Positions 5,225 through 58,386 of a stretch of 64,000 nucleotides of DNA are shown here, piece by piece. The translations under genes were made by a program, and so were the position numbers. Below the pieces are notes generated by a model. That model was not told where the DNA came from, did not search any database, and saw only the letters and a program-made list of their open reading frames with translations. Origin of the DNA: Taxawa tesnikishii (nom. ined.) (taxonomy: Eukaryota > Ascomycota > Dothideomycetes > Dothideales); assembly GCA_030247885.1 (NCBI GenBank), contig JAPDRO010000003.1:1364001-1428000 (forward strand), in the 5' to 3' direction. Numbering within the stretch: the stretch's first letter is position 1; the number at the start of each line of letters is the position of its first letter.

Positions 5225-5255
5225 CCTGACGAGAACAGAACATATGCTGAGGACA

Positions 5256-6618: not shown

Positions 6619-7532
6619 ATGGCTAGCCCAACACTCGACGATTTTGCGATCAAAGGTGCTGCTAGACGCTCATCCTTACCGGGCGCTCGTGACGAGCACG
6701 CTACGACACGCCCAATATCTCCTCGCCGCAGCCGTTCTCCATCAAGAGATTCCTCCAGCCGTCAAGGTCGCACACGCGAGTCGAGGTCACCTTTGCCGCA
6801 TCAGCGCTCTCCCTCCGAGGATGGCGAGACGCGCGACGATGCACCTCCTCTGCCAGACGAGCCTGTTCCAGGAACAGAAGCACCCCCTCTTCCTCTTGAA
6901 GCTCCCCTGAGGATGATGGTTGGGAACCGCGCTTGGATGAGCAGAGTGGGGCATACTACTACGTCAACAGGTTCACCGGAGTGTCGCAATGGGAAAACCC
7001 TCGCATGCCGGACGACCCTTACGGCTACAAAGCTGCTGCTGCTGCTGCCACCGCCACTGCCCAAACCTCCTCAGATGCTCCCGGCACCGAAGGCACCTCG
7101 GCTGACGCCACGAAACAGCCGTCTCCTCCGCCAGGCCCATACATGGGATACAATCCCAAGATCCACGGCGACTATGACCCCAACGCCGACTACGCAAAAT
7201 GGCACGAGAAACAGCAAGAGGAGGTTTTAGAGGCTGATACATCTAACGCAGCGGATATGATCAACATGTACGACCAGCAAGCCACTTTCAACCGCTTCAC
7301 CGGCGCGTTTCAAGGCGGCAGCAAGAACCCCGAGCACCACAATGACGAGAACAAGTCAAAGCGCCAGATGAACCACTTCTTCGATGTAGATCGCGCCGCT
7401 AATGCTCACGACGGCCGGTCACTCAAGGCGGAGCGCGCTCAAAAGAAGCTCAGCAAGGCGCAAGTCAAGGCTTTCAACGAGCAGCGCAAAGCCAAGAAAG
7501 AGCAGAAGCGGCGCGAGTTCCTGATGAATTGA
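6619..7532 (+). CDS. WW-domain protein, probably splicing-related
   Basis: The N-terminus is an Arg/Ser/Pro-rich region with SR-type dipeptides. A single WW domain follows at about residues 98-130, with its two tryptophans in DDGWEP and SQWENP around an aromatic YYYVNRFTG core. The C-terminal third is lysine-rich and helical and includes HFFDVD and KKLSKAQVKAFNEQRKAKK. This layout is seen in fungal WW proteins assumed to bind proline-rich splicing factors; the function is inferred. The frame breaks at the C-run 6904-6907. One extra C there restores EAPPEDDGWEP and gives 304 residues with no leftover bases. No good donor/acceptor pair explains the shift, so a missing base is the best explanation. 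Confidence 0.72.
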
Positions 7533-8054
7533 TACGGAGTCTCGGCAGTGACCTCAAGGCATACGACGACAGAGTGATAGCTTCAGTCCAACACGAAGCA
7601 GTGACGGCGGTGGTGGTGGGCTCTCGTGAGTAATCGTCGTGATTGCTGACTGTATGAGCATGTTTGCTTCTGCCTACGTAAACGGCTGCTTTGCTATCAT
7701 GACTAACAGTACTGTACAGGGAAGAAAACAATGACATGCATGGCAACGGCGTTGGTGGTAAACGTTGCAACAACGGAGGGCTGGCTTTTCTGGTGATATA
7801 CCCTTTGTACGCCCTTATCGAGGAGCAGTCGGTCAATCGCAGTGTTTTATCAAGTTGAGCTGGCTGAACGAGTTAGTCGAGGTCAACAGGGTGTGTTTCA
7901 GTAGCGTTGGCATTCTCTTCCAAGCGACTAAAGCGAGCTGAGTAAACGGCGGAAGCCAGGGAGGGATGCTTGCGTGAAGAATACTCGCCGGCACAGTTTT
8001 CCGAGAATTGGATATTTTCTGCACACAGGTACGAGCAATTCATGAACAATTTAT

Positions 8055-8076
8055 CCAGTGCCAGTGCCAGTGCCAG
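8055..8076. repeat. (CCAGTG)n microsatellite
   Basis: Three full CCAGTG units plus a partial one in tandem, in a non-coding stretch. Confidence 0.85.
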
Positions 8077-8527
8077 ACCATGAGTCGCAGTCTTGTACCC
8101 CGCTGCGTGTTCTTGATTGAATGGTACCTATCAGAGCTTGAAATTTGACCCAGAGACCATCGGCTCGGGGTTCCGTCCGCTAGGGAAGGGAGCGATGGCG
8201 CATTAGTTGCGGCGGAAGCGTAGGCGATAGAAGAGGCTGAGTAGCGAAGCACAAGCGCACACGTTAGGAAGTAGTGGCTGTGTTCTCTCCAAGCGATTTC
8301 TTCCTAGAGAATGCTTGGTGTTGCAGCGAGTGATAGACCGCATTACACAAAGAGCAAGGTTGGTCGTGGGGAAGGTCATCAACAGGGTCGCCGTGTGAGT
8401 GTCGACTAGGCAAACTCAATTGGCGCCGCAGTCAAGGCTCGCTCAACAGTGGGTTACTCGGTGCGATGCGAGCCACATGGTTGATCAAGTAGGTGTCCTG
8501 ACTTGGCGTGTTCGGCGGCAGATCGTC

Positions 8528-8588
8528 GGGGCAGGGGCAGGGGCAGGGGCACGGCCACGGGCACGAGCACGGGCACGGCCACGGGCAG
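8528..8588. repeat. GGGGCA / GGGCAC degenerate G-rich repeat
   Basis: About ten hexamer-like units (GGGGCA passing into GGGCAC and GGCCAC) in a row. The G-runs are evenly spaced, so the plus strand could fold into a G-quadruplex; that is inference. Confidence 0.75.
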
Positions 8589-9149
8589 TGCACCAAACGG
8601 CACACAGCAGGCGTACGCATGGGCAAGGCATCATCTTGCACGGCTCCGGTCCGAGAACCTCGACGAGCCATCTGAGACCTTTTTGGCGACACTGTCTTGC
8701 ATTGCGTCTCGGGTCTGCCGGGCCCGCACTGCAGTGTTTTTCTGTATGTATGATCAGGAACTTCCGAACAGATGGCGCGTTCTCGGATGCGTGTAGATTG
8801 GGGCTGCGGTGAGCGACAGGGGAAGATGTGCGCGGTGCATTAGCATTTGCTCTCACGTGCGCCGTGCTATGCTGCATTATCGGGCAGTTCTTTTACGTCT
8901 CTGGCTCGTTGGCTTGGCACTTAACGCACTTTGACGTTGTTTGCTTGCAGCAAAGACCCGGACCATTTCGCCGGTAGCGCGGGCGGATAATCCATCCCAA
9001 CTCCCGCAGCAATCGTCGTGTCGAACAGACCAGCCGGTGCTCCAATACACAAACCCGCCCCGCGATAATTGCGCTGAATCGTTCCCTGTGCCTGTGCCTT
9101 CCTGCTTGAGCCAAACCCCGAATCCAGGCTCATGCCTTCCTAGTTCCAT

Positions 9150-9215
9150 CACCATCCACCTTCCACCTTCCACCTTCTACCTTCCGCCTTCCATCTTCCA
9201 CCATCCACCATCCAT
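9150..9215. repeat. Pyrimidine-rich CCTTCCA/CCATC tract
   Basis: This is a degenerate tandem tract of CACCTTC, CTTCCAC and CCATCCA units on the plus strand. It lies upstream of URC4 and could act as a promoter CT-box, which is common in fungal 5' regions. Confidence 0.7.
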
Positions 9216-9438
9216 CTCCCACCGACCTCCCGCCCCCGTCTTCTCTCCTTCTTTACCTCCGCCGCCGCCTACACATCTCTACAGCTACACTCCCACCTTC
9301 TACACGACCAATCCCCACTCGAGTCGCGCATGCAACTCGGTTTCGTGGCATCTCAACGCTCCACTGCCGCATTAGCTCGCCCGCTTCCTCGGCCTATCTC
9401 TCAACCGCCTACAACATACCATACGCAAAGTCGCCCAG

Positions 9439-11086
9439 ATGGGGCTCTTCAAACGCAAAAGTGACAAGTCGACCAACGGCACGGCGGACCTCAAGGACTC
9501 GAGCGCTGCCACCAAAGTATCATCCCGACCCAACATGAACGGCTCACCAGCAGCGAACGCAGTCATTCCGGACATCCCAATCCCCGGGCGCCAGACCCAG
9601 CCTTGGATCCAGCCGCGTACCTGCGCAGTATCCAAGCTGTGAGAGAGCGATCACGATACGTCCTGGAGAAGGCCAAGAGGAACAAGCTCACGCATTTCGT
9701 CGTCGACATGAGCAAATTTCCCGAGACGGCGAGATACGTGGTGTCGATAATCAACGTGCGAAACTGACTGGCAAGCAATTGAGCTGTACAGCAGCTGACT
9801 TTGTGCAGAGAGACTATGCACCAAACTACGCCTCAATCCCCCACATGGCCGCTGGCAGCACCGAAGTCGGTGGCCGGCCACGTGTAGATCAGCTCATGGC
9901 AACATGGCCCATCTCGGTGAACGCACAGGAACGGACTCGCCGGCTGATCGATCTTTTCCTCGTTTCAGTACTTCTGGATGCGGGTGCAGGCATGAAGTGG
10001 CAGTACAAGAGTAAGGAGTCTGGCAAGATCTACAGAAGAAGCGAGGGATTGGCTGTTGCAAGCTTGGAGATGTTTAAGACGGGCCTGTTCAGTAGCGATC
10101 CGGAGGAGCCTTGCCAAGTGGACAGCGCCGCTCTGAAGCGATTAACCGTGCAAGCCATGGCAAAAGGACTGCAGGTGACGGAGCAGAATCCCATTGACGG
10201 TCTGCAGGGCCGAACAAACCTGCTGATCAAGTTGGGAGATGCTCTGCTCAACCAGGAAATCTTTGGTCTGGAAGCGCGCCCCGGAAACATGCTTGGTTGG
10301 TTTCTCCGTACGGGTGGCTGCACGCATGGCGCTGATGTTTCACAACAGATTATCTCTTGTCACACCCCACTACTCAAGCCTCCTCCGTTCCCATCATCCC
10401 CGTTCCCACACTCTGGTCAGTACTCATGGACGGCCTCTCACCGATCTGGCCGACAACACGCACGCAAATCGACCGTGTTTCACTCGGCGACGCCTGGCCC
10501 TGCTCCTCAATGCCTTCACACCCAACTAGTACTTGGGAGAACATCGTGCCTTTCCACAAGCTCACGCAATGGCTGTGCTATTCGCTCATGGTGCCCATGA
10601 CGAAGCTCCTGCACGTCCACTTTGCTGGTGTTGAGCTCATGACGGGTCTTCCGGAGTACAGGAACGGCGGCTTGCTGATCGACACGGGACTTCTCACCCT
10701 CAAGCCTGAAGATGCAAGAAGAGGATTGCAGCAATACCAGATGAACGCCATGAAGCAGGGACAGCCGAATGTGGAGGTTGTGCCACTCTTCACCGCCGAC
10801 GACGACGTGATTGTCGAGTGGCGGGCGCTGACCGTTGGTTTCTTGGACGAGCTGCTTATTGAGGTCAACTCGTTGTTGGGTCTTACCGGATCCAAGAAGT
10901 TGAGTTTGGCGCAGATGCTGGAGGCTGGAACTTGGAAGGTACGTAAACGTTCGCCCTCGGCATGAGATCGCGAAACACCGCATGCTAACATTACCTCAAC
11001 AGGGCGGAAGAGAGATCGCAGAGGTCTCAAGGCCGAACACCAAGGAGCCTCCCATCATGATCCTTTCCGACGGCACAGTTTTCTGA
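9439..11086 (+). CDS. urc4: Uracil catabolism protein 4 (DUF1688)
   Basis: This is the fungal URC4/Urg3 protein (DUF1688 family), part of the URC route for using uracil as nitrogen source. My five-exon model is 9439..9460, 9595..9755, 9809..10295, 10349..10938 and 11003..11086 (447 aa, phases consistent). The first intron is the least certain. Family features include the start PALDPAAYLRSIQAVRERS, SKFPETARYVVSI, the long core ending AQMLEAGTWKGGREIAE, and the C-terminus PPIMILSDGTVF. One oddity: where the family has IPPHGRW-QHF-VGG, this sequence reads IPHMAAGSTEVGG. That is best explained by a missing C in the run 9838-9842 and two more bases about 20 nt later, which together restore the frame. 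Confidence 0.9.
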
Positions 11087-11991
11087 AGATACCCATTTTA
11101 AGTACTGATAGTCCTTTTGCTATTTTGCTTCTGCTCCCTGCTTGTTTCGGCTGTCAAGTCTGGCGCTCGGTTTTGCTATGAGGTCGATCCAATTCTAGGC
11201 GGGTACCAGTCCCTCTCTTCCTCTTTGTAGAAACCATGCAGCATGTACGGGTACGTGTACGTGTACGTATCAGGCGTGGAAAGTCTTCCAGCCGCGGGTC
11301 AGGTGGCGGCCGGCCTCGTGCATAATCTCAGACTCTTTGAACCTTGCTGTTGTTTCTCTCAATCGTGTTGACCGAAGCAGAGGCCGCCGAACAATTCCAG
11401 GCTTGTGGCTTCCTAATCCTCTCACGACAAGGCATGGCACGACCGTCTCTACTGCTTTAGTAGCTAGAAGCGAACAGCTCAAGTAAAGGGCAAAGCGGAC
11501 TTCGGTGTGATATCTCAGGACTTCCTACTACTGAAGTGGTACGTACAGTAGGCTCGGGAGAGGGTAGTATCTGGTCCAGGCCGACAAGGAAATGTTACAA
11601 TTTGGTCGTAATGCCCCGAAACAAATTATCATGACAACGGTATAGCCCAAAAGAAACTAAAGAACACAACGCCTCAACGCTTGAACCGACCGCTCCTTGA
11701 CAAGCTCACAAGGGCCCGGCAGTCTATCCACGGACGAACCGTCACAGGAGAAAGGTTGCGCCAGCCGCGGCCCTTTGCACCCACCAACTCCACAAGACAA
11801 AAAACGTATCCATCACGCAACGAGTCTCTTCAAGACTTCGCCAGGTCGTTACCACCAAATAGTCCCGCCTTCAACGCGTGCTTCACCACCAGGAACGCAG
11901 CGTGGGCGAATTTGCTCTGACAGGAGTGTCGAAATCAGACGCGAGCGTATCGAAATGAGGAGACCACAATTCCCTTTTGGCTGTCCTGTCG
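11087..11991. other. Intergenic
   Basis: This is the 3' flank of URC4 followed by sequence with no supported coding frame. A short GTACGT/GTACGG repeat lies around 11247-11270. Confidence 0.45.
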
Positions 11992-30077: not shown

Positions 30078-31459
30078 ATGGAGACCGGAAAACCCGTGCA
30101 CACGGTTGTGCTGGATACCGGAGCCATAATCCGCAACCAGCCAACAGTATCAACTCTGTTGGCACAATCAGAGCGAATTGTTACAGTACCCGCTATTGTA
30201 TCTGAAATCAGAGATGCTGCTACAAGGTCGCGTGTAGAAACGACGTTGCAGCCTTTCTTGACTCTACGAACTCCTGGGCCAGCAAGCATAAAATTTGTTA
30301 CAGAATTTGCGCGGAGAACTGGAGATTTGGCGGTGCTCAGCAAACCCGATATTCAGATTATCGCGCTTGCATATGAACTGGAATGCGAACGAAATGGCGG
30401 CGACTGGCGGCTGCGAAAGGCACCGGGCCAGAAAGGACTGAATGGTGCGCCACCGTCCAAGGACGCGAAGACTGAGGAAAAGCCTGCGAGCGAGACCGCA
30501 CAGCCCGCAGAAGCTGGTGCCAATGGGATGGAGCAGGCGGCGCCAACGGACGCCGGTCTAGTAAACAAAGATTTGGCGACACCTACTGAGCCAGTCATCC
30601 AGGCGGGTGCAGAACAACCTGCACAGGAAGAGGTTCAAGCAGAAGTACCGGAGGCAACACCATCCGCAGACGCCCAGGGGAGAAACTTCAAACCGAGCCG
30701 GTCGAAGCTCTCGAGCAATCTATACAGAATGCGTCTATCTCAGACACTGGGGCAGAAAAGGAGGCTGAAGCAGCGCCAAAAGTCGACTCCGCTCTGAACT
30801 CCCAAGAGGATGCAAACTCCACAGATTCAGATTCTGAAGGATGGATTACGCCATCAAATTTGAAGAAGCACCAAGCCAAAGACGTTGGTACCTCCACCAC
30901 GCAAACAACAGAGCCCAAGACTATGCAAGTTGCCACCTTGACTACCGATTTCGCCATGCAGAACGTGATTCTGCAGATCAATCTGAACCTTCTCTCTCCA
31001 TCTATGAACAGGGTGAAGCACCTCAAGACCTTCATTCTACGCTGCCATGCCTGTTTCCAAACGACCAAGGAAATGAACAAGCAATTCTGCCCTCGTTGCG
31101 GCAAGCCAACACTCACACGCGTGGCGTGCTCTACGGACGCGAACGGACAATTCACGCTGCATCTCAAGAAGAATATGCAGTGGAACACGCGTGGAGATCG
31201 CTACAGCATTCCTAAACCAGTAGCCGGATCGGCGAACGGCAGGGTCAAGGGTGGTGGAAAGGAGGGATGGGGGAACGATCTGATTTTGGCGGAGGACCAG
31301 AAAGAGTATGTCAGGACACTTGGTCAGCAGAAGAGAACGAAGGAAAGGGATCTGATGGATGAGGATTATCTGCCTTCGATCTTGACAGGTGACAGGGGAA
31401 GGGCTGGTGGTAGAATCAAGGTTGGCGCGGGAAAGAACGTGAACTCGAGGAAGAGATAA
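30078..31459 (+). CDS. nob1: NOB1, 20S pre-rRNA D-site endonuclease
   Basis: NOB1 is the PIN-domain endonuclease that makes the 3' end of 18S rRNA in late cytoplasmic pre-40S particles. The N-terminal PIN domain (residues about 8-110) has VLDTGAII, with the catalytic Asp, and KPDIQIIALAYELE. A long acidic Ala/Glu/Gln-rich linker follows. The C-terminal zinc ribbon is CHACFQTT ... CPRCGKPTLTRVAC (C-x2-C ... C-x2-C). The tail is basic (GRIKVGAGKNVNSRKR). The gene has no intron. One −1 break lies in the G-run 30677-30680. One added base keeps the acidic linker (GEKLQTEPVEALEQS) open and gives 460 aa exactly. Confidence 0.93.
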
Positions 31460-35137: not shown

Positions 35138-38100
35138 ATGGCGGACCAAAATGGAGCTCCAGTCAAGTCGGTGTCTTCTCTACGGTCCATGTTCGAGGGT
35201 GGAGGACAGGTCAATCAGGCACCACCACCGCGTCCGGCCGCTCAGAAACCCCAGTTGCGCCCATCAGGACAAGATGAAGCCCGGCCAAACACGCCTGTTC
35301 GCATGTCCCTGGATCTTCCACGTCCTTTGTCAAGCGCTCAGAATGTACCGACCTTAAACGGTCGTGGCCTCCAGACGCCGGAAGCCAGACAGAGGCGTGC
35401 GAGTCCTCCTTCTTCTAGGCAACGTCCATTGTCCATGGTATCTCTAACTCCCAAGCGCTCCCCTCCGCTTGTCACTGTAGATTCTCCTCAGTCACCACCG
35501 AAACACACTGGTTCCCCAGCGATCTCGTCTGCGAGATCTCCAATCTTGAAACCTGCTGGATTTGATACGGAGTCACCCGGGACAGTCAAAGGAGGCCACT
35601 TCCGGAGTCAAAGCAGAGCTACGACGCCTGCCTTGGAGGCTCGCATGTCTATGTTTCTGCAAAATGCCGGATCTTCCGAGAATTTGCCAAAACCGGACAG
35701 ACCTCCCTCGCCTGCGAGTGAAAGACCTAAAAGTCTGTTTGTATCCGCACCTCCTCCGGTCAACCGAGCTGGTAAACCCAAGATCAGCGCCGGTTTATCA
35801 GGAACTCCAGATAAACCTGGATTGAAACCGGTTGCGCCAGATTCACGCGTCATGACGCCGGAGGAGAGAGATCTCTCGCCGTTCAGCACACCGCCAAGTA
35901 GCTCTGAAAACACGCCCGGAGAACAGGTTCCTCCGCCAATCCATGAACATCTCAAACCCAGGATACCAGCTTCTGTGACCGTTCAGGACGGATATTTTGC
36001 GGCGCCTGCTATACCGCGACGAATACCTGAACGGAGAAGGGAAGAACCTTCTAGATTTCTTGCCAGATCACCCACTCTACCGGCCAATTACCAATTCGCG
36101 CAGCCGCGAGCAATAAACGTGGATGGCATGTCACCAGAGGAGCGTCCGGTTCTGCCTGCAAGACATGAGACAATGATGGGTTCCGGTCGAACAAGCCCAA
36201 TAAGGCAGCAAGTCCCTCCTAGGCCAGAATTGCAGACAAGATCCGGAAGGACCAGCCCCACCAGGCAGAACAAGATCCCGGCGCGGAAATCTGAGGACGT
36301 TCCTCGCACGGCGAGCAGCCTGATAGCTGACACGCATGCCCAGTTCCTGCCGCCGCCTCGCCGGGCCAAGCAGAGCGCACTGTTGCAAGGTTTCGATCGG
36401 TCCGGTTCGCTTCCGCCTGCCTTGCCGTCCGCTTCAACCGCAAAACCCGCACCCCTGCAGTCCCTGCGCCGAGGCGGTCAACGGAGCATCGCAGGAGGGA
36501 CATCACTCCTCCAAGCAGCAACGGTCACTCGCGTGTGGACGACTACGAAGATCCTCCGGTGTTGCCGAATGGAGTAAATCTTCCTGGTCCTGCCGACTAT
36601 CCGGACTCCTCCCAAGCCAATCGTCGTCCCCCCGTTTCCAGCACCGTCCATGGCACATTGCTACTGGATACGACACGCGACTCTTCGCAGTCTGCGGAGA
36701 GTACGTCTGCACCACAGGATATGTCACCAGGGTGTGGAACCTTAGGACGGGTGAGTCACTGGGCACGCTGTCGCTTGGTGATAATATCAAGGTCACATCC
36801 ATTGTGTTCAAGCCTGCGATAGACGTTGCGGACGAAGGAAAGCGGCTCTGGCTGGGTACGAATATCGGGGAAATCCACGAGCTGGATATACCGAGTCAAA
36901 GCATTGTATTCACGAAACCGAATGCGCACCCTAGGAGGGAGATTATCAAAATGTATCGGCATGCCTCGGAGATCTGGTCGCTGGACGATGATGGAAAACT
37001 GCACGTGTGGCCGCCTGGTCCAAATGGAATACCGAGTTTGGAAGAGACGCCGAACGCTTTTCGTGTACCAAAAGGGCATTCTTTTTCGGTCCAATGCGGA
37101 AACCAGCTGTGGGTCGCGACTGGCAAGGACGTTCGAGTATTCCAACCGAGTGCTGCGACCGAGACGGCGTTTCAGCTACTCCAGCGGCCGCTCTCGCAAC
37201 CGAATGCTGGAGACGTTACCTCTGGCGCCACCATCACCAGTAAACCCGATTTGATATACTTTGGTCATGCAGATGGCAAAGTGTCAATCTACAACAAACG
37301 CGACTACACTTGCCAAGGCGTCATCAACGTGAGCGTTTACAAGATCAGTGCCATGGCCGGAGTAGGAGACGACCTGTGGGCTGGCTACAACACGGGCATG
37401 GCTTACGTCTACGACATCTCCAATACACCGTGGCGTGTGAAGAAGGACTGGAAAGCGCACGACAATCCCGTCTGCAGCATCCAGGCTGACCAATCCAGTA
37501 TCTGGAAGCTGGATCGTCTGCAGGTCATCTCCTTGGCACTGACAACATGATTAGGATCTGGGACGGCATGCTCCGGGAAGACTGGCTTGACGCGCAAATG
37601 CAGGAACACGACGATGAGTTTTGCGATTTCCAGGAGGTCACTGCGGCAGTGCTGACATGGAACGCTGGCGCGTCGAAGCCGACGTCGCTGCGGAACGACG
37701 AGAGGGACAACAACTTCTTCCGGGATTACATGTCCAGTCACAATCCGCCGGATATATGGGTCTTCGGGTTCCAGGAACTGGTCGATCTCGAGGACAAGAA
37801 GGTAACTGCGAGTAAGTCGTTCCGAAAGCACGCTAGCAACTGCGCGCGCATAACTGATACGACGGTGCTGCAGAGAGTTTTTCAAAAGCAAGAAGAAGGA
37901 TCCGACGGAGCAGGAACACATGAGCCATCAATACCGAGCGTGGCGTGACCACCTGACACGATGTCTCGAGGACTACATGCCGGCGAATCAACCCTATACC
38001 CTCCTTCACACGGCCAGCATGGTCGGCCTCTTCAGTTGCGTGTACGTCAAATCCGCAATCCGCAGCCGGATCAAACACATCCACACGGCAGAAGTCAAGC

Positions 38101-39038
38101 GCGGAATGGGCGGCTTGCACGGCAACAAGGTATGCTCCGTTCCTTCCCGACCACGCCTTCTCCCTCGTCTTCTGCACTCTTGGCGCGATCGCCGCTCTGT
38201 GTCCTAACACGATATCGAATCAGGGCGCCCTAATCCTCCGTCTTGCCCTCGACGACACCTCCCTCTGCCTCATCAATTGCCATCTGGCGGCGGGCCAGTC
38301 CCAGACGATCGCACGCAACAACGACGTCGCCGCAATCCTCGAAGCCGAGTGCCTGCCACCTCTCGGCCCGCCCCTGGGCTCGCTGCCGGACAGCTCCCTC
38401 TTCGTGTCCGGCGGCGACGGCTCCATGATCCTCGACCACGAAATCTGCATCCTGAACGGCGACCTCAACTACCGCATCGACGCCATGTCGCGCGACACGG
38501 TGGTCAAGGCGGTGCTGCAGCGCAACCTCGCCAAGCTGCTCGAGCGCGACCAGCTGCTCCTGAGCAGGAAGAAGAACCCGGGCTTCAGGCTGAGGGCGTT
38601 CAGCGAGCTGCCCATCTCCTTCGCGCCGACGTACAAGTACGACGTCGGCACGGACGAATACGACTCGAGTGAGAAGAAACGGTCCCCCGCGTGGTGCGAT
38701 CGCATAATGTGCCGTGGTGTGGGAAGGGTCAAGGGCGAGGAGTACAGGCGGTGGGAGGTCAGGGTGAGCGATCACAGGCCCGTGAGCTGCAGGTTTAGGT
38801 GCCGGGTCAAACGCATTGATTCTTCAAAGAAGATGCGTGTGAGGGACAGATTGGAGGGCGAGTTCGAAAGGTTCAGGGACAGGGTCGCCGGAGAGGTCAA
38901 GTAAGTTTTCGTTCGTTTCCTGTTGTGTGTGGGAATCTAAATGGCAGACGCTGACCGAGTGTGTCAAAACAGGCTGGACTACCTCGTGAATGTGTTTGGA
39001 CTGTCGAAAAGGAGGCGCAGAGAGTTCTGCAGGTGTAG
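35138..39038 (+). CDS. WD40 + inositol polyphosphate 5-phosphatase protein
   Basis: The predicted protein is about 1225 aa. Residues about 1-470 are disordered and Pro/Ser-rich. A WD40-type beta-propeller follows (FAVCGEYVCTTGYVTRVWNL to RIWDGML). The C-terminal IPPc domain should remove the 5-phosphate from phosphoinositides or inositol phosphates. Motifs are LTWNAG, FGFQELVDLEDKK, NCHLAAGQ, LNGDLNYR, FAPTYKYD, SPAWCDRI and SDHRPV. Exons are 35138..37811, 37874..38129, 38224..38900 and 38973..39038. Five −1 breaks are present: C-run 36452-36455, C-run 36628-36633, near 37531, T-run 37878-37882 and A-run 39007-39010. With one base at each, all phases close. The architecture resembles plant FRA3-type and fungal WD40-5-phosphatases. 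Confidence 0.9.
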
Positions 39039-39323
39039 CCGGATTGTTCGGGGAGGAAATCCATCGTCATAGTGATTCTATGGACCCAGCAATAGTGCTA
39101 CAGGAAAATGGCTCTCTCCCAAAAAAAAACGAGAGCCTCTTTGGCAAAAAGTACAACGTGGTGGTGGCCTCCAATGCCCTTCCAACGAGTATCATCAAAA
39201 GGCCAACCAAGGCATGCCCTTGTCTCATTCCTTCTTCTGTCGTTTGTCATCGTGCTCATCATCGTCTTCACGCAATCCGTCAGAATGATGGACGTGATCG
39301 CAATCGCGGCAAAGGGGTTCCGT

Positions 39324-42541: not shown

Positions 42542-43518
42542 TCAACCTCCTCTCAACACCTTCACAGCTTCAGCACTCTCGTCCAAATCCCTGTAGAGCC
42601 CGATGATCTTAAGCGTCTGGCCGCCTCCCACGGATCCAGCGGTCTTTGCCTGCTTGAGGGCTGCTCCAAGATCCAGGAGAAGTGTATTCCGAACCTTCAT
42701 CATCCTGGGTTCCTGAGCAACCAGAAAAGGGTGTTCTTTGCCGATCCGGTCGATCATCTGCTGGATAAGCAGATATAGCTGGGCATGCGTCTTGAGCCTA
42801 GCTATCGCGGCCGTCCCGATCCCGCTAGGCAAGTCCGTGCTCCCATCTTCGTCCTCACTCTCCGCGTCGTCTTCGTCTTCGCTACTCGCAACTCCCCAGT
42901 CTGGCCAACCATCAGCCGTGCTTCCAGCTCCCCTAACCGTTCATCAACCTCCAGTAATTTCCTTCCCACATCCACGTCTTTTCTCACTTTCCGCTTTTCG
43001 TCTAGAAGCTCTTTGACTAACGCGTTCCTCTGCCTCACGGTCTCCTTTACTCCTTCGACCTCCCTCTTGAATCCCAACACCCCTAACCTGACCTCTTCGA
43101 CCTTGTCATCCCCTCCTCTCAGCGTACTCCCCAGACCCAGAAACTCTTCGTAATTGCCGTTCACGAGATCTAGAAGCTCCTTTGAGAGGTCTTGCGAACG
43201 GGCGCGTAGATCTGAGCGCAGGTCTTCGAGCGTTTGGTGCCGGTTGTGGAGGGTAGAGAGGTATTGCTGCGGTGAGAAGTCTGCAGAGAGGAAGTCGGAG
43301 CGAGGGAGTGGTGCTGGATACGGAAGGGTGTCTTCGTCGGAGTCGTAGTCGTCGTCGTCGTATTCTGCTCCAGCGGGAAGACGGGAGTTGAAGGAGGGAG
43401 TGGGAGTGGTGGGGGAAAGCGCGGGAGAGGGGGTTGCTGTTGTGGTTGTTGTCGAGCTGGGTAACTGTGTCGTTGTTAGCTGCGGACGTGCGAAGGTAGG
43501 CACAGAGGGACCATGCAT
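42542..43518 (-). CDS. cog2: COG2, conserved oligomeric Golgi complex subunit 2
   Basis: COG2 is a lobe-A subunit of the COG tethering complex for retrograde intra-Golgi vesicles. The N-terminal Ser/Thr/Pro-rich leader and acidic DDDDYDSDED stretch lead into the conserved start SDFLSADFSPQQYLSTLHNR. LRSDLRARSQDLSKELLDLV and NYEEFLGLGSTLRGG follow, then a long coiled coil ending near LGELEARL. The C-terminal helices include KTHAQLYLLIQQMIDRIG and VRNTLLLDLGAALKQAK. One −1 break occurs near 42879-42881. A single base there joins an acidic linker (EDEDDAESEDEDGS) and gives 325 aa, a normal size for the short fungal COG2. I chose the ATG at 43518; the frame upstream has only a GTG. Confidence 0.88.
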
Positions 43519-43942
43519 AGAAGCCACTCATCCTGTCTGCGATAGTCAAGGGTCAAGGGTCAAGGGTCAAGGGTCGTGCAGAGAGATATCACGTGGTAAG
43601 ACGACCGTAATGGAGTTTGGAGCGGGCAGATAAGGTTTGGAGTCCATGGATCGGGCGATAATCTTAACTCAATTGCCGCATCGTCTCGATAATGACGTGC
43701 CGCGGCCGACGATGCCCCTCTATCGCCGTCGCCTATACCTTGCTTACCAATTGGTGCAGTACATTTGCTGTTTGCCTCTGACCGATTGATCGCTGTCTTC
43801 CTGCTTGATTTGTGCAAGAAGTATCAAGTATCAAAGTATCCCAACCCTGTATACCTCTGAGAAAGAATTTGTACAAACAACACTCGAATTCTCTTTGTAG
43901 CCCTCCAATCTCATCTTATATCATATCCTATCAATTTCCGGC
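43519..43942. promoter_or_regulatory. Shared divergent upstream region, COG2 / NPY1
   Basis: 424 bp lie between divergent start codons. A GTCAAGG heptamer repeat (43545-43573) sits just upstream of the COG2 start. A pyrimidine-rich leader precedes NPY1 (about 43895-43940). Confidence 0.45.
43545..43573. repeat. (GTCAAGG)4 heptamer repeat
   Basis: Four tandem GTCAAGG units about 27-55 bp upstream of the COG2 start codon, probably within its 5' leader. Confidence 0.9.
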
Positions 43943-45336
43943 ATGCCGCAACCCGAGCTCCCTCAACCCGCCCACCCAGAACTCGACTCGATGTTGTCCA
44001 GGAAGTTTGGCAAGGAGGTGGCCAACTACTTCTCCGGTATGCGATCACTCTACCAAACCCAGTATCTCATATTGACCCTCATTATCAGGCTCACCTCTCA
44101 ATCGTGTTGGCTTTCTCAGAGGAGACTCTACTTTTCTCTCAGCCGCTGTTCGACACCCGTCAACTTCCTTTCTACTCTGCAAGGATCTGCAGCCGTTGAT
44201 TAAAGAGAAGACAAACCTCGCCTGGGTAAAGCACCAGGATGTGAAGCCCGTCATTGGCGAAGACCCGTATCATCAAACGGAGGATGAGCTGATTTCGCAA
44301 TACAACTCGACTAAATACACCCCTCAAATGATCTTCCTCGGCCTGGATGACCGGGAAGAAGGCCTGACTTACAAGGATCTTTACAAGGGCGCCCCTCGCT
44401 TTGCCGTGGACGTGACGCCAAAGAAGTCCTTGTCGGATGCCTGCAACGAGCTCATTTCCTCTCTGGATTCTCGCGGTCTGACTTTCGCTCAAGGGCGAGC
44501 AATGGATCTTGAGGCTTCGGACGGTACGTACTGCGCTCCGTGGGAGGCCTTCATACTCAGTATACCTGCTGCGTCCCGAGGTCACACTCACTGACATTTC
44601 ACTAGCCGCCATCTACGCCGAAGCACGTCAACTCCTTGACTGGAACGCACGTAACCCCTTCTGCGCACAATGCGGCCAGCCCACACTCTCCGTGAACGGT
44701 GGTTTCAAGCGTACCTGCCCGCCCACCGATCTCGCCAATTTGCCCGCCGGAACAACCTCCACAACCACCGAGACACCCATCACGAACACGACCGAAAGGC
44801 CACCCTGTGCAACGCGCAAGGGCGTTTCCAACCTGTCCTTCCCTCGCACCGACCCAACCGTCATCATGGCAGTCGTCAATTCGGCCGGCAGCCACATCCT
44901 GCTCGGACGCCAGAAGCGCTGGCCGCCGCACTGGTACTCCACGCTCGCCGGATTCTGCGAGCCTGCCGAGAGCGTCGAGGAAGCTGTGCGCCGCGAAGTG
45001 TGGGAAGAAGCCGGCGTCAAGCTGGGAAGAGTCGTCGTTCACTCCACGCAGCCGTGGCCGTACCCCGCGAACCTGATGATCGGAGCAATCGGCCAAGCCG
45101 TGCCGGGGGACGGGGAGAAGATCGATCTTGGAAACGACCCGGAGCTGGAGGACGCGAGATGGTTCAGCTTTGACGAAGCCAGGGAAGCGCTGAGGGTTGG
45201 CACGAGTGGGTTAGGCGAGGATGCGGGACCGGAATACAAAGAGGGTGGATTGAGGCTGCCGCCAAGAACTGCCATTGCGCACCAGCTCATAACGGCTGTT
45301 ACCTCTGGCTTCTTGGGAGCTGAGCCGAAGATGTGA
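43943..45336 (+). CDS. npy1: NADH pyrophosphatase (Nudix), NPY1-like
   Basis: This Nudix hydrolase cleaves NADH (and related dinucleotides) to NMNH and AMP; yeast Npy1 is peroxisomal. Exons are 43943..44036, 44089..44523 and 44606..45336, with exact phases and 419 aa. The N-terminal domain begins after the first splice (GSPLNRVGFLRGDSTFLSAA). The zinc ribbon includes NPFCAQCGQPT and a later Cys pair. The Nudix box is GFCEPAESVEEAVRREVWEE followed by AGV. The NADH-specific motif appears as TQPWPYPANLM, where the family has SQPWPFP. The C-terminus (EPKM) is not a canonical PTS1, so the location is open. The gene is divergent from COG2 and convergent with uL1m. Confidence 0.93.
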
Positions 45337-45526: not shown

Positions 45527-46633
45527 TTACAGAGTGGACAAGTCTTTTGTCGGGACAGAGTTCGGTCCCTTGAAGTCTCCATTCAGACTCAAGCCGGGCC
45601 CGTTGGTGGAGCTCAGCACCTAATGTCAGCGTTAGCACAAAACTGCTCATCCCACGACGAATACGCTCATCCGCAGAATACGAGCAAAAACTCACCACCT
45701 CGTGAATATCCTTGCTGATGCGATCGCTCAACCCGGCAATGTCCCCCTAACCTTCTCGACAAACGCCCTGATGTTCCTCTGCAGCTCTTCAGGCGTGTAA
45801 CCCAGCTGGCCCACCGCCATTCTCACAACCCCCAGCCTTTCCCTGTACTCGCTGGCGCCCACCATATCCCTCACGCTGGCGCCCACGTCCTTGACCACCG
45901 TTCCCGTCTTGGCGCTCGGCATCAGTCCCCTTGGTCCCAGCACACGTCCCAGACCGGCCTTGTTCAGCTTGGCCAGGGAATCCGTGTGGCAGATGCACCT
46001 GTCGAACTCGATCCTTCCCGCCTTGACTGCCGTGAAGATGCTGTCCTCGCCGACAAGAGTGGCGCCGGCTTTGCGGGCTGCGGCCGCGGCGGCCGAGTCT
46101 TCCGGCGCGACGACGGCGATGCGAAGGTCGGTCTTCACGGGGTGGGGAGACGCAGGCGATTCCGGACCACGGCGCCGTTCTTGGGTGTGCGAAGTTTGAG
46201 GTGGAGTTCGTATTTCGAGCTGCTGGGCGAGCGGCCGACTTCAGCGGCGCGGAGGTAGCTGTGGATATCGTATCAGCTTGACTGTGAGGCAAAAGACTGC
46301 TTTGGAGAGCGTAGTGGGTGGATTGGTGTTCGGTGGAGTGTACGGGCTCGGATCGGGTTGGAGTGGTGGGTTGACATACCGCATGGCATCGACGAGCGAG
46401 AATTGAATCGCATCTTTCAGGTCATACTGTATGAAGGTTGTCCTGCTCTTCTTCTTGCGCGTTGATGTCGGCTGGTCTTTCCGCTTGTACTTTGCTGCGT
46501 TGGCGCTCTGGACCGCGGTACGGTGCTGCTGGAAGGGGAGGAGGAATGGCGGTGGTAGTTGAGCGACGGGCCGCAATGAAGGCGTTAAAGCGGACCTGGA
46601 AATGTGTGAGAGGCACGACTTTGCTGAAGCCAT
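45527..46633 (-). CDS. mrpl1: Mitochondrial ribosomal protein uL1m
   Basis: This is the large-subunit L1-stalk protein of the mitochondrial ribosome, 303 aa. Exons are 46380..46633, 45696..46258 and 45527..45619. The N-terminus is a basic presequence (SHISRSALTPSLRPVAQ) followed by KYKRKDQPTSTRKKKSRTTF. The L1 fold is marked by YDLKDAIQFSLVDAMRYL across the first splice, KTDLRIAVVAPEDS, NKAGLGRVLGPRGLMPSAKTG and YTPEELQRNIRAFVEKVRG, with the end LSSTNGPGLSLNGDFKGP. Two −1 breaks exist, at the runs 46144-46147 and 45732-45734. One base at each restores LRLPHPVKTDLR and TLPGLSDRISKDIHEV and makes every phase fit. Confidence 0.9.
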
Positions 46634-48538: not shown

Positions 48539-50692
48539 TCACACCTCCTCGGTGAACCTGCTCCCACGACTTTCACCGAAACTGGAGAAGGTCGCCGGGG
48601 TATCTCTCCCGCCGCCCGTTCCCGCGAAGCTCGACGCGAGCGGTGTGCTCGGCGTCGCCGTCCTACTCCTTGCGCCTTCTGCGTGCAGCATCGAGCGCGG
48701 GCTTAGCGGCGGAGGCGTCGGGCTACCACCAAAGCCGTAGGGGCCGCCAGGATGCACTGTGGGTGTACGTTGTGGGCCAGGATGAATCTCCATCGGTGTT
48801 TCAGCTGCTGCATCTTCGCTGTTCGCCGAGCCTCCCGTTCCACCCATTCCACCATACCAGCCAGTAGAATCACGGTAGAAGGACGTGTTGCTGTAGCTGC
48901 GGTCGTGATCGGGAGACATCGTAGGGGCGGCGCCGGCTCCTGCTCCAGTGCTCATCATACCAGGAGAGAAGGCCGAGGGAAGTTTCCTGCCACTGATTCT
49001 TTGAAAGCCCCGCTCACCCGTTGCAGGGGAGCTTCGGTGGGCGCAGTATGTCGAAGCTTGAAAGGCAAGATTGAACCCGCAGCAATCGCCAGAGGTCGGA
49101 GACCTGCACGCTCTGCCATACCAGGGCCGCGCGACACAGGACCAGATGAGTGGCCGGCGGGATCGGCTTCCATCTCGGTGATCTGATGCATTCTGCTTGC
49201 GCGACGGCGGTACCAGCGTAGGAAGAGCATTGCTGTCAAAAGGAGAATTGCAAGACCGGCAACTCCGCCAACAATACCGCCAGCCAGGACGGGGGTTGGA
49301 GGTGTACCGTCATCATCATCGTTGTTGTTGTTGTTATTGCCGCCTGCTGCGCTGCTCGTTGCAGAAGAGCCGGATCCTGTCGGTGTGCCCGAACCGACAC
49401 TAACACCCCCTGCGCCGGTTGTGGTTGTAACGTCTAAGCCGGAAGTAGTAGGGAAGGCGCTGGCGCCAGATGTGCTTGCAGCAACATCACTGGTGGCGGC
49501 AGATCCGGAATCGGAGGAATCAGTCGGAGCGGCAGTCGAGAAGTCGCTGGCTGGTATGGTAGATACACTGCCATCAGGCAAGGTGGTAATTTCAGCAGAT
49601 GTTGATTGTGTGCGTGTAGAGACGACCCCGTTGGACAACGTCGTGAGGATTGTTTCGTAGAGATACGTGTCGATTCGTGACGCCGAGACACCGGCGGTAG
49701 AAGTCCTAGTGCTGAGGGGACCCAGGTCGATCGTCGAAAAGCTTGTGTATGTAGTGTGTGAGTTGGAGATTACAATGGCTGATGACAGGGTCAGTCGAGC
49801 GGCTACATTGTTAGCTGTCTTGGCACTCACCAGATGTCGTGAAATTTCTCTCGGCAGAAAGAACCGAAGATGATACGCTTGGCAAGATTGATCCGGTAGA
49901 TGAGTATGCGGGCCCAGTCAGTGTCGCAGAGGCAACAGAGGATGAACCTGACGAAGTCATGGTGCGGTTAGACGCCAATGAAGAGAGCATGGAGCTCGTG
50001 GTCGTCGACCCTCCAATTGGGTTCAAGCCGATCATGCCCTCTGGCAGAACAGAGGAAGATGAAGACGTAGACACAGCGGTAGAAGAGCGAGTTGTGCTTG
50101 GCTCGGTCGAAGCATCTGTGGTAGCCGCAGCAGTGCTGGATGATTGAGGTGTGTCCGCCGAGGTGTTGTCCGATGATATGAGTGTGGTTGTGGAAGTAAA
50201 TGGAAATGATGGGACTGTTGGTACTGTGGGGACCACGTCTGTGGCAGTTGGTACGTCCGGAACGGTCAAGGAAGTGGGAAAGGCTGGCTCTGAGGGCACC
50301 ACGGGAAGAGTAGTTGCATCGACCGTGCTTCCTGATGGGTCGACAGTAGCTACCACTGATACCACAACGGTTTCGCCGGACGAGACGGATACAGCTGTGC
50401 CCGCACTGGTTTGCCGGCGATGTAGCCGATGGTGCGCATCTTCGATGGCTCTGCGGCCGGCCCTGTACGGAGTCTGCTCTCTTTTGATCTCGATGTGCAC
50501 CTCTTCGACCCGTGAGGGCTTGTTTCCGGAAGAAAACCAATGGGGACATTCCTCGACACCGTGGGAGTAGGGAGCGAATGACCGGTCAGCGGTGGTGATA
50601 GTAGTGGTGCTGCTCCGGCTGCAGTCGACTTGCGAGCTGCAGCAACGTAGGGAAGACTTTGACAGCCTGCGACGCTTTGAAGGTTGCTCCAT
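48539..50692 (-). CDS. Ser/Thr-rich single-pass membrane protein (Mid2/WSC-like layout)
   Basis: A predicted 700-aa protein is encoded by exons 49831..50692 and 48539..49778, joined by a GTGAGT...CAG intron of 52 nt. The order is: basic N-terminus; a stretch with EVHIEIKREQTPYRAG and HHRLHRRQ; a very long Ser/Thr region; an Asn6-Asp4 tract; one membrane span (GGIVGGVAGLAILLLTAMLF); a stop-transfer RWYRRR; and a cytosolic Pro/Gly/Ser tail. This layout resembles fungal wall-stress sensors such as Mid2 and WSC, but there is no WSC cysteine domain and no clear signal peptide. One −1 break near 48983-48987 is repaired by one base, giving GKLPSAFSPGMM and one continuous frame. The function is inferred only from layout. 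Confidence 0.65.
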
Positions 50693-52773: not shown

Positions 52774-55317
52774 ATGTCTGAGAAAAGCGACCATCTCAAC
52801 GTAGCAAAGCCTCCACCTCTGCCGCCACGGACTCCCAGTAATCAACAGCTCCCCCACCTCATGCCCCTCCTTCCTATGACGAAGCAATCGCCGGGTCAAG
52901 CAGTCCCGAACTCCCACCATGGTCAGCCCAGGACCCGCGTTCGTCGTCGCAGCAGTCGCTCTTACCGACAAACTCCAATGAGCAGAAAGAGAGAAGAAGG
53001 CTGTTGTTGATATACATACATGGATTCATGGGCAACGAGACAAGCTTCCAGAGCTTCCCTGCCCATGTTCACAACCTTGTCACGGCATTGGTCGTGGAGA
53101 CACACGTTGTTCATACTAAGATATACCCTAGATACAGGTCGAAGAGGAACATAAGCTTTGCAAGAGATGATTTCAGTAAATGGTTGGTTTAACAAGTTCC
53201 ACGTGTGCATACGCATTTCTGATGACTGCGTGCAGGCTCGTGCCCAACGAAGATCCAACCACGGACGTTGTTCTTCTTGGGCACAGCATGGGCGGTCTTG
53301 TGTCCGCAGAAGTCGTCCTGGTTTCTCTTCAAGCTGAAGTAGGTCTGAGGCACCGCATTCTTGGCACCATCAACTTTGACGTACCATTCCTCGGTATGCA
53401 TCCTGGGGTCATTAAGAGTGGCCTGGCAAGCATATTCAATCCTGCCCCAGACACTCCAACCCAACCTGAAGCTCAAACACTATCCCCAATCACAAGTCTG
53501 GGACTGGCCAGCCCTGAAGCATCGGAAGGCCCATTCTCACCTCCAGCCCGTGCTGACACATTTTTCAATCCCGACCAACCAGATCCGAACTTCAATCCGG
53601 CCTTCCAAAACGACGTCGTCCTCCCTGTCAGGAAAGGATGGAGAAACGTATGGCATTTTGTGAATAAGCACTCCGACAACCTCACTGCAGCAACCAAGCA
53701 GTTGATTTCCTCACACATGGAGTTTGGAGGCGCCATGGCAGACTACAGTGGTCTCAAGATGCGGTATGCCCGCATCAGAGCGCTGGAAGAACAGAATGAG
53801 GACATCAGGCGATCCGTGGTCAGTGGCAATTCCGCTCCCCCAAGAGTGCGCTTCGTCAACTACTACACCGCGAGCACGGGAAGACCCAAGAAGCCCAAAT
53901 CACCGCAGGAATCTCCATCGTCCGGGTTATCAGTAGGAAAGGGCAGCCTCGTCATGAACGATACTACGGCGCAGAACGATGCCCAAGAAGAGCCTGCACC
54001 CCGTCTCAGTACCAGTACGTCTCAATCGAGGAGCCCTCGCCTGTCTTTGGAAGAGCACACCAACGAAGGCCTGATTGTGAAGTATATTGGACAGCCAGAT
54101 GAGGCATCTTCATCTCCCGAACCGTCGCCTCGAGGATCCATGGAGCATCTCGACCCACGCCCAGTTTCCTCGCGCGGCAGCGTCTCCTCGCAGGAAGCTT
54201 GGACCGACGCCATGGAAGAGCTGCAGCTGGCTACGACTACAGAAGACCAAGCCCTTTCTCCCACCCTATCCGGAGCTCTCTCACCCTCGAACACCTCCAT
54301 CCTCAGTCCATCTTCGGCGTCGACCCCTCTGCCGTCTCAATCTCAGGCTTCGCTAGCCTTGACTCCGGCAACATCATCATCATCATCTTCTCTCCTGCCG
54401 ATCCCAGACCTCCCACCACCGCCACAGAAACCCGATTTCTCGACCTTCGCGGATAAAGATACGCGCAAATTAGCGGAGAAGGAGTATCTTCGGCTCTCTC
54501 GTTCGCATGAGAAGGCTGTCAAGGATCGCCAGAAGGCGCTCAAGGAGCGTGCGAAGTTGGAGGAGAAGTTGCTGAAGAAGCGAATGAAAGACGACGAAAA
54601 AGCAGCCAAGGAAAGGGAGAAGGAGAGGAAGAAGAAGGGAGAGGAGAGGGAGGATGAGTATGAGCGGAGGTTAGGGCTAGAGAGGAGGGAGACGGAGAGA
54701 GAATGGAAGGAGTTTCAGGCTGGTGGGGAGCATGAGGATGGGGAAGAGAAGGAGGAGATTCCGAGGGATGAGAACGGTGTGCCGAGGCCGGACTGGGTCG
54801 GTAAGAGGAAAGAAGAGACTCGGGGAGGAAACGAACGAGAGCAAAGAAGTCAGATTATTCCAAGGGACGGGAACGGAGTTCCGAGACCGGATTGGGTGGG
54901 CAAGGATATCCCCCTGATCCACCAAAGGAGAATTTGTCGACTTTACGAGCGGTCGAGGAGAAGTATGGCGAGGCTGTCGCACAACTCAACCTGTCGAACG
55001 ACAAGGCCGTGCCCAAGGGCAAACAGAAGAAGACGGAAGAGCCAGAGAAGTCTACAGGTCCGCCCAAAGATCGCATGTTCTGCACCCTGCCGCCCAAGGA
55101 CTCGGTTGGTAACAGGGATCCGTGCTGGGTGCGGATTTTCATGAAAGATGTGGATGAGGTGGGCGCTCATTGCGGGCTCTTCTTCACTACAGATGGCGAT
55201 AGGTATGAGAGGTTGGTCGGAGATGTCGCGGAGAGGATTGAGGAGTGGGTTGGAGAGGCGGAGAGCGAGAGGATCGCGAGAAGTCTTGGGGGAGTAGATT
55301 GGGTTACGATGGGATGA
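52774..55317 (+). CDS. DUF676-type alpha/beta hydrolase with long charged C-terminus
   Basis: This is a predicted serine hydrolase (lipase-like, DUF676/PGAP1-like) of 830 aa. Exons are 52774..53182 and 53236..55317. A Pro-rich N-terminus (PPPLPPRTPS ... HAPPSYDEAIAG) leads to IYIHGFMGNETSFQSF, the oxyanion-hole region. The nucleophile elbow is LLGHSMGGLV (GxSxG), created just after the splice that restores KWLVPNEDP. TINFDVPFLGMHPG follows. The second half is Ser/Pro-rich, then a highly charged Lys/Glu coiled coil (about residues 555-660). Two copies of a motif IPRDxNGVPRPDWVG come next, and a compact C-terminal region last (WVRIFMKDVDEVGAHCGLFF). Two −1 breaks (C-run 52851-52855, G-run 54898-54900) close with one base each. 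The substrate is unknown. Confidence 0.85.
54755..54903 (+). repeat. Duplicated IPRDxNGVPRPDWVG motif
   Basis: Two copies of a 15-residue motif lie about 30 codons apart in the hydrolase C-terminal region. The DNA also repeats in part (CCGAGGCCGGACTGGGT and CCGAGACCGGATTGGGT). Confidence 0.8.
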
Positions 55318-56075
55318 GGACGCTTCAGAGTAGGCTCGGGCATGGTCGGGTGAAGTTTGCTGATTGAGTTGAGATACCCATCTTGTTGATGTTATGAGGT
55401 TGCGAAAGGATTTGAAGGCAAGGGCTTCTAAAATGATAGCAGGATGCGTTTTTAGACCGCCTTACGTTGTAAGAACTCATCATATGACGTTTCGTTTTCT
55501 GTTGGCTGGGTTGCTGCGTGTAAGGCCTTCCTTGTTCACCACCTGATGATCCTGCGCGCGCAATCTGCAGAGCACCGGAGTGTGGTTGCGGCGAGAAGGG
55601 CGCAGTCTGTGGGAAGTCAGCATCTTCCAGTTGCGTTGATATCACGCTTGAGTATGAGGTGGACCACAATGACAAGCCATGTGATTCTGGTATGAGCGGA
55701 TCCTTACTCTCGATCTCCTCTTTGACGCTTTCGTGATCGTGGTAAGTGCAGACATCGTGACTGCCGGAGCGGGATTAACTCCCTTGAACGAAGTCAATAT
55801 GAATTTTGTGAATGAAGAGTAACAAGTTCGGTTTGTCCCACCAGACTCGCAGTTCAAAATCTCAATCGCATGAGAGAGGCGGCGTTTGGGAGCTTGCGCT
55901 TCTATGGGAGAGGCTAATGTAACAAGTCCACTCTGTTGCAACAGTCATGTCACAGTCTTTTCGAAGAGCCGATGAGGCAACAGGTATCATGGGAATTCCA
56001 CTCACACATAGCGAACACCTCCAGCGCCTCGCTAAGCAAAAAGACGTTCAAAGCAGAGTCACCACCAACTCAACC
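55318..56075. other. Intergenic, convergent 3' ends
   Basis: The 3' flanks of the hydrolase gene and of Ku80 meet here. No gene is supported. Confidence 0.45.
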
Positions 56076-58386
56076 TCATTTCGTAGACATGAACGCCTTT
56101 GCTCCCTCTTCATCCACGTCGCTCGTGTGGCATTCCCTCTTCTGTATTGGGCCGAGTCGTGTTACTCTGACCTGCCACCAAAGCTCTTTCCTCTCTCCGC
56201 CCAGCTCCCCACTCAGGATCTCGCCCTTCAACCTTTGTAAGAAGTTGTTGTAGATGGACGGTTCTTCAAGGTCCACCATTTCCTCCCGCATTATGCGAAT
56301 TGCTTCGATTGCACGGCCATAGCCGGAATCGCCGACAGAGTGTCGAATGTAGTCCTCAATAATGGTAGCAAGCTGGTCCGAAGCATCCCGCATGCTATCA
56401 ACGGATTCTGCGGTATCGAGAAGCTGCTTGTATTCCGGGATGGCGTTTTCGGGAGAGATGCGCTTGCGCTTTTCCTTTGTTTGGAGGAGAGCGTTGACGT
56501 CAAGACCGGAAAGAGGCTTGGGGGCATCACGGCGGAATTTTCGAGACCTTGCTTTCGGTGGCACTTGAATTGGTTAGTAACATGAGAGTGCAGAAGGACT
56601 AGGGAAGGAAGCTTGCCCTTCTTCACGTCCGCCACTGCAAGAATCCTGTCCAGAGCCGGCTGCGCTTGATTGACGAGCTCTTCGGGCGGCTTCGAGTACT
56701 TGGTGAGGATGTCATGAACCGGTGGTAGCCCACTGTTCGGGTATACCGCTCGGTGGCGAATGGCCTGGTTCACCCGGTGTAGAACAGGCGAGAAGGTGTC
56801 CTCTATGGGCATGTATTCACAAGGTTGTCTGCCAAGATTAGCATATACTCTGTGACGGGTTCAAAGAAACACACTACCCTTCGTCATTTGTACCAAACGA
56901 CGACAGGTCCATTTTGTCGACGTATTCGCTCATGGCGTCTTTGAGTGTCTGGCTTGGCAGATTGCGATGCTCCTTGAGCACCTTGCCCGAAACCGTTTCC
57001 ACTCTATCCAAAGGCGGGAATCTATATTCTCGGACATCCTCCGCAAATGGAAGCTCGACATCGTACAAGCACTCGAGATCCGGATCGATCGAAGGCGCAA
57101 GGAGAAGTAAAACCGGATGTTTGCCGTCCTTTGCTACGAAGCGAGCCACAGCGTAGGAGTCAAGCTCATACAAAGCGTGTATGAAGGAAGAAAGAGCCAT
57201 GCTGGCCTTATCGTTGGTCCGCTGGGCGATAATGACGTTTGCTCTAGACATATCCATGTAGCGGTCGTACTGCATTGCATTAGCAGAAGACGCATCTTAA
57301 TCCTACTTCATATTACCTGTTCTTTCGTTACGAAACCAACGATATCGAGGCTTTCCCTGGTCTCGTAATCTGTGACGTTTCTGTCCGATTCGGAAACGTA
57401 GACAGCTGTACAGCCGTACTCATACCCTTTTGACAGCTCATCCGATTCAACGTCCCTCTTGCCACCAGGAGCAGATTCGTCTACAATCTGGTACGTTCGT
57501 GCATTTTTCACTGCCGCTAGTGGATCTTGAGTTGTTTCTCCGTCTTTCCACATAGCTAACGACTGAGTTGCTTCGTCAGGAGCCATGTCTCCTTTGATAA
57601 CAAAACTGCTCGCTGCAGGAGGTCTTGCTACCATTGTGCGTGGATATCGTTCAACGTTAATGTTCATTGCAGTGTCGTAGTCCTCCGGGTTGCCGAGGGT
57701 GAGGTAGCCTTTGAATGAGTGGACTGGCCGTACCGTTTTCAGTCGTGGAATGCCCAGCTCATCGATGGCTTGTACAAGAGTGCCGAATACCCCGTTGCAA
57801 TCTTTAGTCAGGTTGCTCAGGGTTTGTTCGTTGGTTGCTTTGATATCGCTCTTGCCCTCCTCCTTGAAGCCAAACTCTGAGTCGTCGAAATCAACGCCAA
57901 GGATAACGAGCTCCATGTTGTCTTCCCTGATCTTGCTGATGATATCGCCAAGATCATCTGCATCCATAGGTGCATTGGCGTTGGTGACAAGAACGATTCT
58001 GCGAATGTATTGAAGTTTTTGCAATGACTTGAGATCATCTGTATTGCAACGACAAGAGCGGAGATGGCATCTCCCGCGTCTGTGTCACTAGGAAATATTT
58101 GCTCCTTTAGGTGACGAAGATCCGGCATCAGTGCTTGTCCAAGGGGTTGAAGGATTGAGATGTGCTGATAAGCCTCTTCACTATCTAGATCATTCTGGGA
58201 GCCATCCGTTCTGAAGCCAATGACGCCGAGGTGTGCTGTCTTGCGGTCCGTAGCTACAGTAGTAGTAATCTTGTCCCAGACGTATTCCATGGCCCATTCC
58301 AAATCGGTTACTTCACGGCCATGGTTGCGCATGCCCATGGACGAGCCTACGTCCACAATGTAGACGGTGGCTTCCTTGGTAGCCAT
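56076..58386 (-). CDS. ku80: Ku80, NHEJ DNA-end-binding subunit
   Basis: This is the larger Ku subunit. With Ku70 it encircles broken DNA ends, recruits non-homologous end joining and helps maintain telomeres. Exons are 57317..58386, 56878..57269, 56617..56828 and 56076..56563, giving 720 aa, the usual size. The vWA-like domain starts [15 protein letters not shown] and runs through [16 protein letters not shown]. The Ku core has [19 protein letters not shown] across intron 1 and [19 protein letters not shown]. The C-terminal part has [20 protein letters not shown], made by intron 3. That intron (56564..56616) uses a GC donor (GCAAGC). One −1 break near 58038-58040 is repaired by one base ([17 protein letters not shown]) and closes all phases. 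The gene is divergent from the TMEM205-like gene. Confidence 0.93.

Follow-up and report, generated by a model that had tools for sequence, protein, structure and literature searches.

Frame breaks in conserved genes of a fungal genome assembly very probably stem from errors of the consensus sequence

The window analysed here is a stretch of 64,000 bases, covering bases 1364001-1428000 of contig 23 in an assembly of 29,367,862 bases on 34 contigs. A profile search confirmed that NOB1, COG2, uL1, and Ku80 are present in this window. Together with the short introns, this gene content indicates a fungus, probably an ascomycete in view of the best structural match of uL1 (see below). An earlier note had listed at least 18 frame breaks here, each described as the loss of a single base (-1) and most of them assigned to homopolymers. 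All 14 intervals that it quoted coincide exactly with single-base runs (14/14), and the runs at 45732-45734 and 54898-54900 are just three bases long. A codon model was trained on long open frames and used, wherever a frame change could be defined, to compare a break of one base with the best GT-AG intron yielding the same change. Ten of the 18 listed sites are supported as -1 breaks by this analysis. Nine of them favour the break over the best intron, by 0.7 to 7.2 nats, and the tenth (46144) rests on homology. As a control, the comparison was applied to five frame changes presumed to be caused by introns, four of which scored as introns and one (38130) as a break by 1.6 nats, so that margins of such size are not decisive. 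For the control at 10296-10348, which is an intron on reading by eye, the test chose another intron of 41 bases.

On the forward strand, a -1 break lies in a WW-domain gene (6900..6951), where it is preferred to the best intron by 4.8 nats. This range contains the C run 6904-6907, and the WW domain is found in frame downstream of the break. The same margin of 4.8 nats was obtained for the break in NOB1 (30590..30700), a range that contains the G run 30677-30680. Here, the PIN domain is separated from the zinc ribbon, with PIN_6 and Zn_ribbon_NOB1 matching in two different frames, and the pieces on both sides of the break match NOB1 chains. A WD40/inositol-polyphosphate-phosphatase-like gene is broken at 36479..36530 (7.2 nats), weakly at 36636..36769 (1.6 nats), and at 37490..37546 (site 37531, 3.5 nats). 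The listed run 36452-36455 falls outside the first of these ranges, the listed C run 36628-36633 lies just outside the second, and the third holds no run of at least four bases. The stretch 35138-38904 on the same strand comprises a WD40 beta-propeller followed by an inositol-polyphosphate 5-phosphatase domain and is apparently a single gene with several frame breaks. A further weak -1 break (54814..54958, site 54898, forward strand) lies in an alpha/beta-hydrolase-like gene, whose PGAP1 and Abhydrolase_6 matches are weak and under their cut-offs; the break is favoured there by 0.7 nats.

On the reverse strand, COG2 carries a weak -1 break (42856..42928, site 42880, 1.6 nats), upstream of which the COG2_N match is in frame. 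A gene without a Pfam name is broken at 48957..49043 (site 48985, 4.4 nats). In Ku80, the break was localised to 58023..58047 (site 58039, 5.4 nats), a range without a run of at least four bases, and the Ku_N and Ku domains match in two different frames. The Ku_N match of the upstream frame reaches position 58009, which counts against an exact placement of this break, and a PDB search with the second Ku80 piece gave no match.

The mitochondrial uL1 gene, also on the reverse strand, is interrupted at 46136..46147 (site 46144) by a break of exactly -1, as judged from homology to chain 6ywe_e, the best solved match of the window's uL1, which we take to be a Neurospora chain. Residue 123 of this chain ends at base 46138, and residue 124, in the next frame, starts there too; two runs of four bases are located within the range 46136..46147. 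Upstream, the 121-base intron 46259-46379 can be placed without assuming a sequence error. The break-versus-intron score alone favours an intron at site 46144 by 17.6 nats, but the scored stretch includes the intron 46259-46379, and on the strength of the sequence alignment the homology to 6ywe_e is taken to override this score. Toward the end of the gene, a possible second break (45730..45746, site 45732, reverse strand) competes with an intron that scores 1.7 nats higher, and a PDB search with the frame of the uL1 tail gave no match.

The indications at site 52851 are likewise divided. A possible break near the start of a hydrolase-like gene (52842..52931, forward strand) is suggested by the frames and by reading by eye, whereas an intron without a branch-like site beats the break by 4.4 nats. 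At two other listed sites, introns make a break unnecessary. The DUF1688 match crosses the run 9838-9842 in a single frame, and its first part lies upstream in another frame; both parts are joined by an intron of 53 nt with a branch-like site (9756..9808, forward strand). This intron explains the preceding frame change, and the break proposed at 9838-9842 is therefore not needed. The whole DUF1688 gene (9465-10962, forward strand), listed earlier as broken, appears to be intact and to contain two introns, each 53 bases long. In the WD40/phosphatase-like gene, a probable intron with a GTAAGT donor (37812..37875, forward strand) is better by 5.1 nats than the break proposed at 37878-37882. The sites 15023, 15089, 15481, and 39007 are situated outside the genes called by the model. 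Whichever strand is read, none of these four is flanked on its two sides by a clear coding frame, and no recognisable coding sequence contains them. Because the unneeded and the noncoding sites have to be removed, the count of at least 18 is too high, and the list shrinks to the ten supported sites and two open ones. The uniform sign claimed for the breaks holds insofar as none of the +1 candidates in the window stood up to scrutiny, but the frame change at 37878-37882 is of the +1 type.

A frameshift model run at 1e-4 returned 14 deletion and six insertion calls in the window and 29 deletion and 12 insertion calls in 20 other stretches. Among the insertion calls of the window, those at 38130-38223, 44037-44088, 44524-44605, and 46259-46379 are introns on reading by eye, and the call at 9622 disappears when the Pfam-supported exon is used together with the intron 9756-9808. 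At least one deletion call (10536) was also dismissed, as it corresponds to the intron 10296-10348 on reading by eye. The remaining insertion call (49837) coincides with a short splice-like stretch. In this region (49781-49900, reverse strand), 28 bases of the form GTGAGT ... CTAAC ... TAG could explain the frame change, but the stretch is far shorter than the other introns and would represent a chance occurrence or a different exon structure. A NADH-pyrophosphatase-like NUDIX gene (43930-45336, forward strand) looks intact despite occupying three frames, which are accounted for by the introns 44037-44088 and 44524-44605. When the same procedure was applied to Escherichia coli, it gave 52 calls (35 deletions and 17 insertions). 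According to the CDS tables, all but two of these are no more than about 45 bases away from the end of a gene, the exceptions being yedL and prfB. The latter is annotated as joined from two pieces in the E. coli record and is a known case of +1 programmed frameshifting. Because introns and E. coli gene ends show the model to be noisy, the raw 43:18 ratio of deletions to insertions was not used, and only the enrichment in runs was considered. Runs of at least four bases account for 0.099 of the positional weight of the 43 deletion calls, compared with 0.034 for random placement (reached in 0 of 300 random sets), even though some of the pooled calls are introns, which dilutes this test. The 18 insertion calls show no enrichment (0.024).

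For the supported sites of the window, the enrichment in runs is not significant, with six of the ten localisation ranges holding a run of at least four bases against 4.4 expected. The earlier assignment of the breaks to runs is thus borne out on other contigs and by the pooled model calls, but the window alone provides no independent link.

To extend the analysis to conserved genes on other contigs, nine Pfam families were searched genome-wide, and the displacement between adjacent pieces of a match was measured for seven of them. The resulting junction table comprises all rows of PF00118, PF00012, PF00562, and PF00083, and only the rows with a visible neighbour for PF00069 (141 rows), PF00324 (16 of 27 entered), and PF00133 (two of nine entered). 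By hand count, the table holds 71 pairs of adjacent pieces. For 51 of these, the displacement amounts to 46-111 bases, which is what introns would give; 11 further pairs are displaced by at least 120 bases, one by 38 bases, and eight by fewer than 30 bases. In these eight short junctions, the displacement is -1 (five times), -7, 8, and 17, and all eight belong to the -1 class. Calculated by hand, this uniformity has a chance of 1 in 256 if both signs are equally likely. The pair displaced by 38 bases, which is also of the -1 class, was excluded from the eight as ambiguous. The Sugar_tr search of the genome gave single pieces only. For DEAD, which stands outside the junction table, three adjacent pairs were found with displacements of 55, 150, and 168 bases (by hand), all far from -1. 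On contig C2, eleven protein-kinase matches were found, several of them in pairs that are near-identical in score and stop content, which would reflect either duplication within the family or a sequence repeat.

The eight short junctions are spread over contigs C1, C3, C4, C7 (two), C14, C30, and C33, with none on the contig of the window. Each junction interval was set from the two pieces, allowing a margin of a few bases; stretches of 120 bases were then read, and random intervals were matched in length. Six of the eight intervals hold a run of at least four bases, compared with 1.45 expected, and this number is attained in only 14 of 20,000 random sets (P about 0.0007). Among the genes broken at short junctions are one of the three Rpb2-type genes (RNA polymerase second subunit), a gene of the CCT family, and a gene of the HSP70 family. 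The genome search returned a single NOB1 zinc ribbon, which belongs to the gene broken in the window. Rpb2-type, NOB1, CCT, and HSP70 family genes are presumably essential.

The run-length spectrum was determined for 244 kb, consisting of the window and 18 GC-normal stretches, with 200 kb of E. coli K-12, a bacterium, as control. Runs of two or three bases grow by one further base with a probability of about 0.2; this value declines from length four onward in C/G runs and at length five in A/T runs. Expected numbers of long runs were computed by holding the growth value of short runs constant. On this basis, the 244 kb contain four C/G runs of at least six bases against 38.2 expected (P about 3e-12) and 22 A/T runs of at least six bases against 45.3 expected (P about 1e-4). 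The corresponding numbers for E. coli K-12 are near expectation, with 194 A/T runs (210.2 expected) and 16 C/G runs (19.8 expected). Exceptions to the cut-off in the window are an A9 run at 39121-39129, the longest run of the window, and a T7 run at 63483. AT-rich stretches on C3 and C20 contain 11 A/T runs of six bases and none longer. These stretches, positions 1-10000 of the two samples, have a GC content of 0.32 and 0.28, respectively; the model finds no coding sequence in them, and they are possibly candidates for repeat-induced point mutation.

Taken together, the frame breaks are very likely errors of the assembled consensus that occur genome-wide, and not the outcome of gene decay or of programmed frameshifting. 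The homopolymer-deletion bias suggested in the earlier note agrees with four tests, namely the -1 sign, the enrichment in runs, the fall-off in run length, and the presumably essential nature of the genes that are hit. Missing bases are the simplest reading because sign, position, and gene identity point in this direction together, and by the same simplest reading the runs in the organism's own DNA would be longer than in the assembly. A long-read base caller, most likely that of a nanopore platform as judged from the run-length cut-off, would have under-counted single-base runs, and the assembly would have been incompletely corrected with accurate reads. Throughout the 29.4 Mb, short homopolymers or their immediate surroundings would consequently lack single bases, and the frames of housekeeping genes would shift by -1. 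Against a strict cap stands the observation that the broken runs are often just four bases long, so that a cap at five bases alone is insufficient as an error model. It also counts against the proposed mechanism that the shortening here affects C/G runs more strongly than A/T runs, whereas A/T-rich 5-mers are the most under-represented ones for one base caller (PMC5889714).

That many of the breaks are merely misread introns in a sequence without defect appears very improbable as a general explanation, although introns do apply to two of the listed sites (9838 and 37878), account for four of the six +1 calls in the window, and also remove at least one deletion call (10536), with a fifth +1 call vanishing once the right exon is used. 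The intron-like displacement (46-111 bases) of 51 of the 71 piece junctions and the better intron scores at 52851 and 45732 point the same way. However, no intron fits the five junctions elsewhere that are displaced by exactly -1, the uL1 break is exactly -1 as well, and nine sites of the window favour a break, three of them weakly and with one of five control introns mis-scored as a break (by 1.6 nats). It is still less credible that the affected genes are genuine pseudogenes undergoing decay in the fungus itself. Natural mutation, too, commonly removes single bases from runs, but the hits concern genes expected to be essential and not dispensable ones. The earlier judgement that decay is implausible is upheld by the one broken Rpb2-type gene among three, by the sole NOB1 zinc ribbon found, and by the CCT and HSP70 families. 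Furthermore, decay should produce indels of both signs and of various sizes, whereas the short junctions are uniformly of the -1 class (8/8), and it would not strip long runs from 244 kb.

Programmed -1 frameshifting or transcript slippage, by which the cell would read the genes as they stand, could produce one-sided breaks that are often located at runs. We nevertheless give this explanation next to no weight, as too many unrelated genes are involved and the missing long runs are left unexplained. Hardly conceivable, too, is a fungus whose runs are truly short, with long homopolymers avoided genome-wide and the -1 frames of dozens of essential genes restored by frameshifting or slippage. As errors of the consensus, the breaks of the window would be an ordinary assembly artefact. 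False breaks would truncate or distort gene predictions made on this assembly, and it would be unsafe to base claims of loss of function on it. With the run-length cut-off and the one-sided junction test combined, assemblies of this kind can be recognised quickly and without reads.

Single-base indels in runs are also a feature shared with consensus sequences from 454 or PacBio CLR reads. To our knowledge, neither of the two yields such a sharp cut-off above five bases, and an assembly of 29.4 Mb in 34 contigs is more in keeping with long reads than with 454 data. For nanopore data, PMC5889714 describes that early base callers capped runs at 5 bp and that A/T-rich 5-mers were the most under-represented for one base caller. 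According to PMC7500977, most errors in conserved genes of nanopore-only assemblies of one fungus lie in homopolymers and alter the reading frame, short-read polishing fixed the homopolymer lengths, and insertion errors outnumbered deletions after long-read polishing. The present assembly differs from those in PMC7500977, which have insertions too, in that no insertion was upheld here, and the one-sided loss would suggest that little long-read polishing took place. In its runs cut near five bases and its frame-shifting single-base errors in conserved genes throughout the genome, it resembles the nanopore-only assemblies as characterised in PMC5889714 and PMC7500977.
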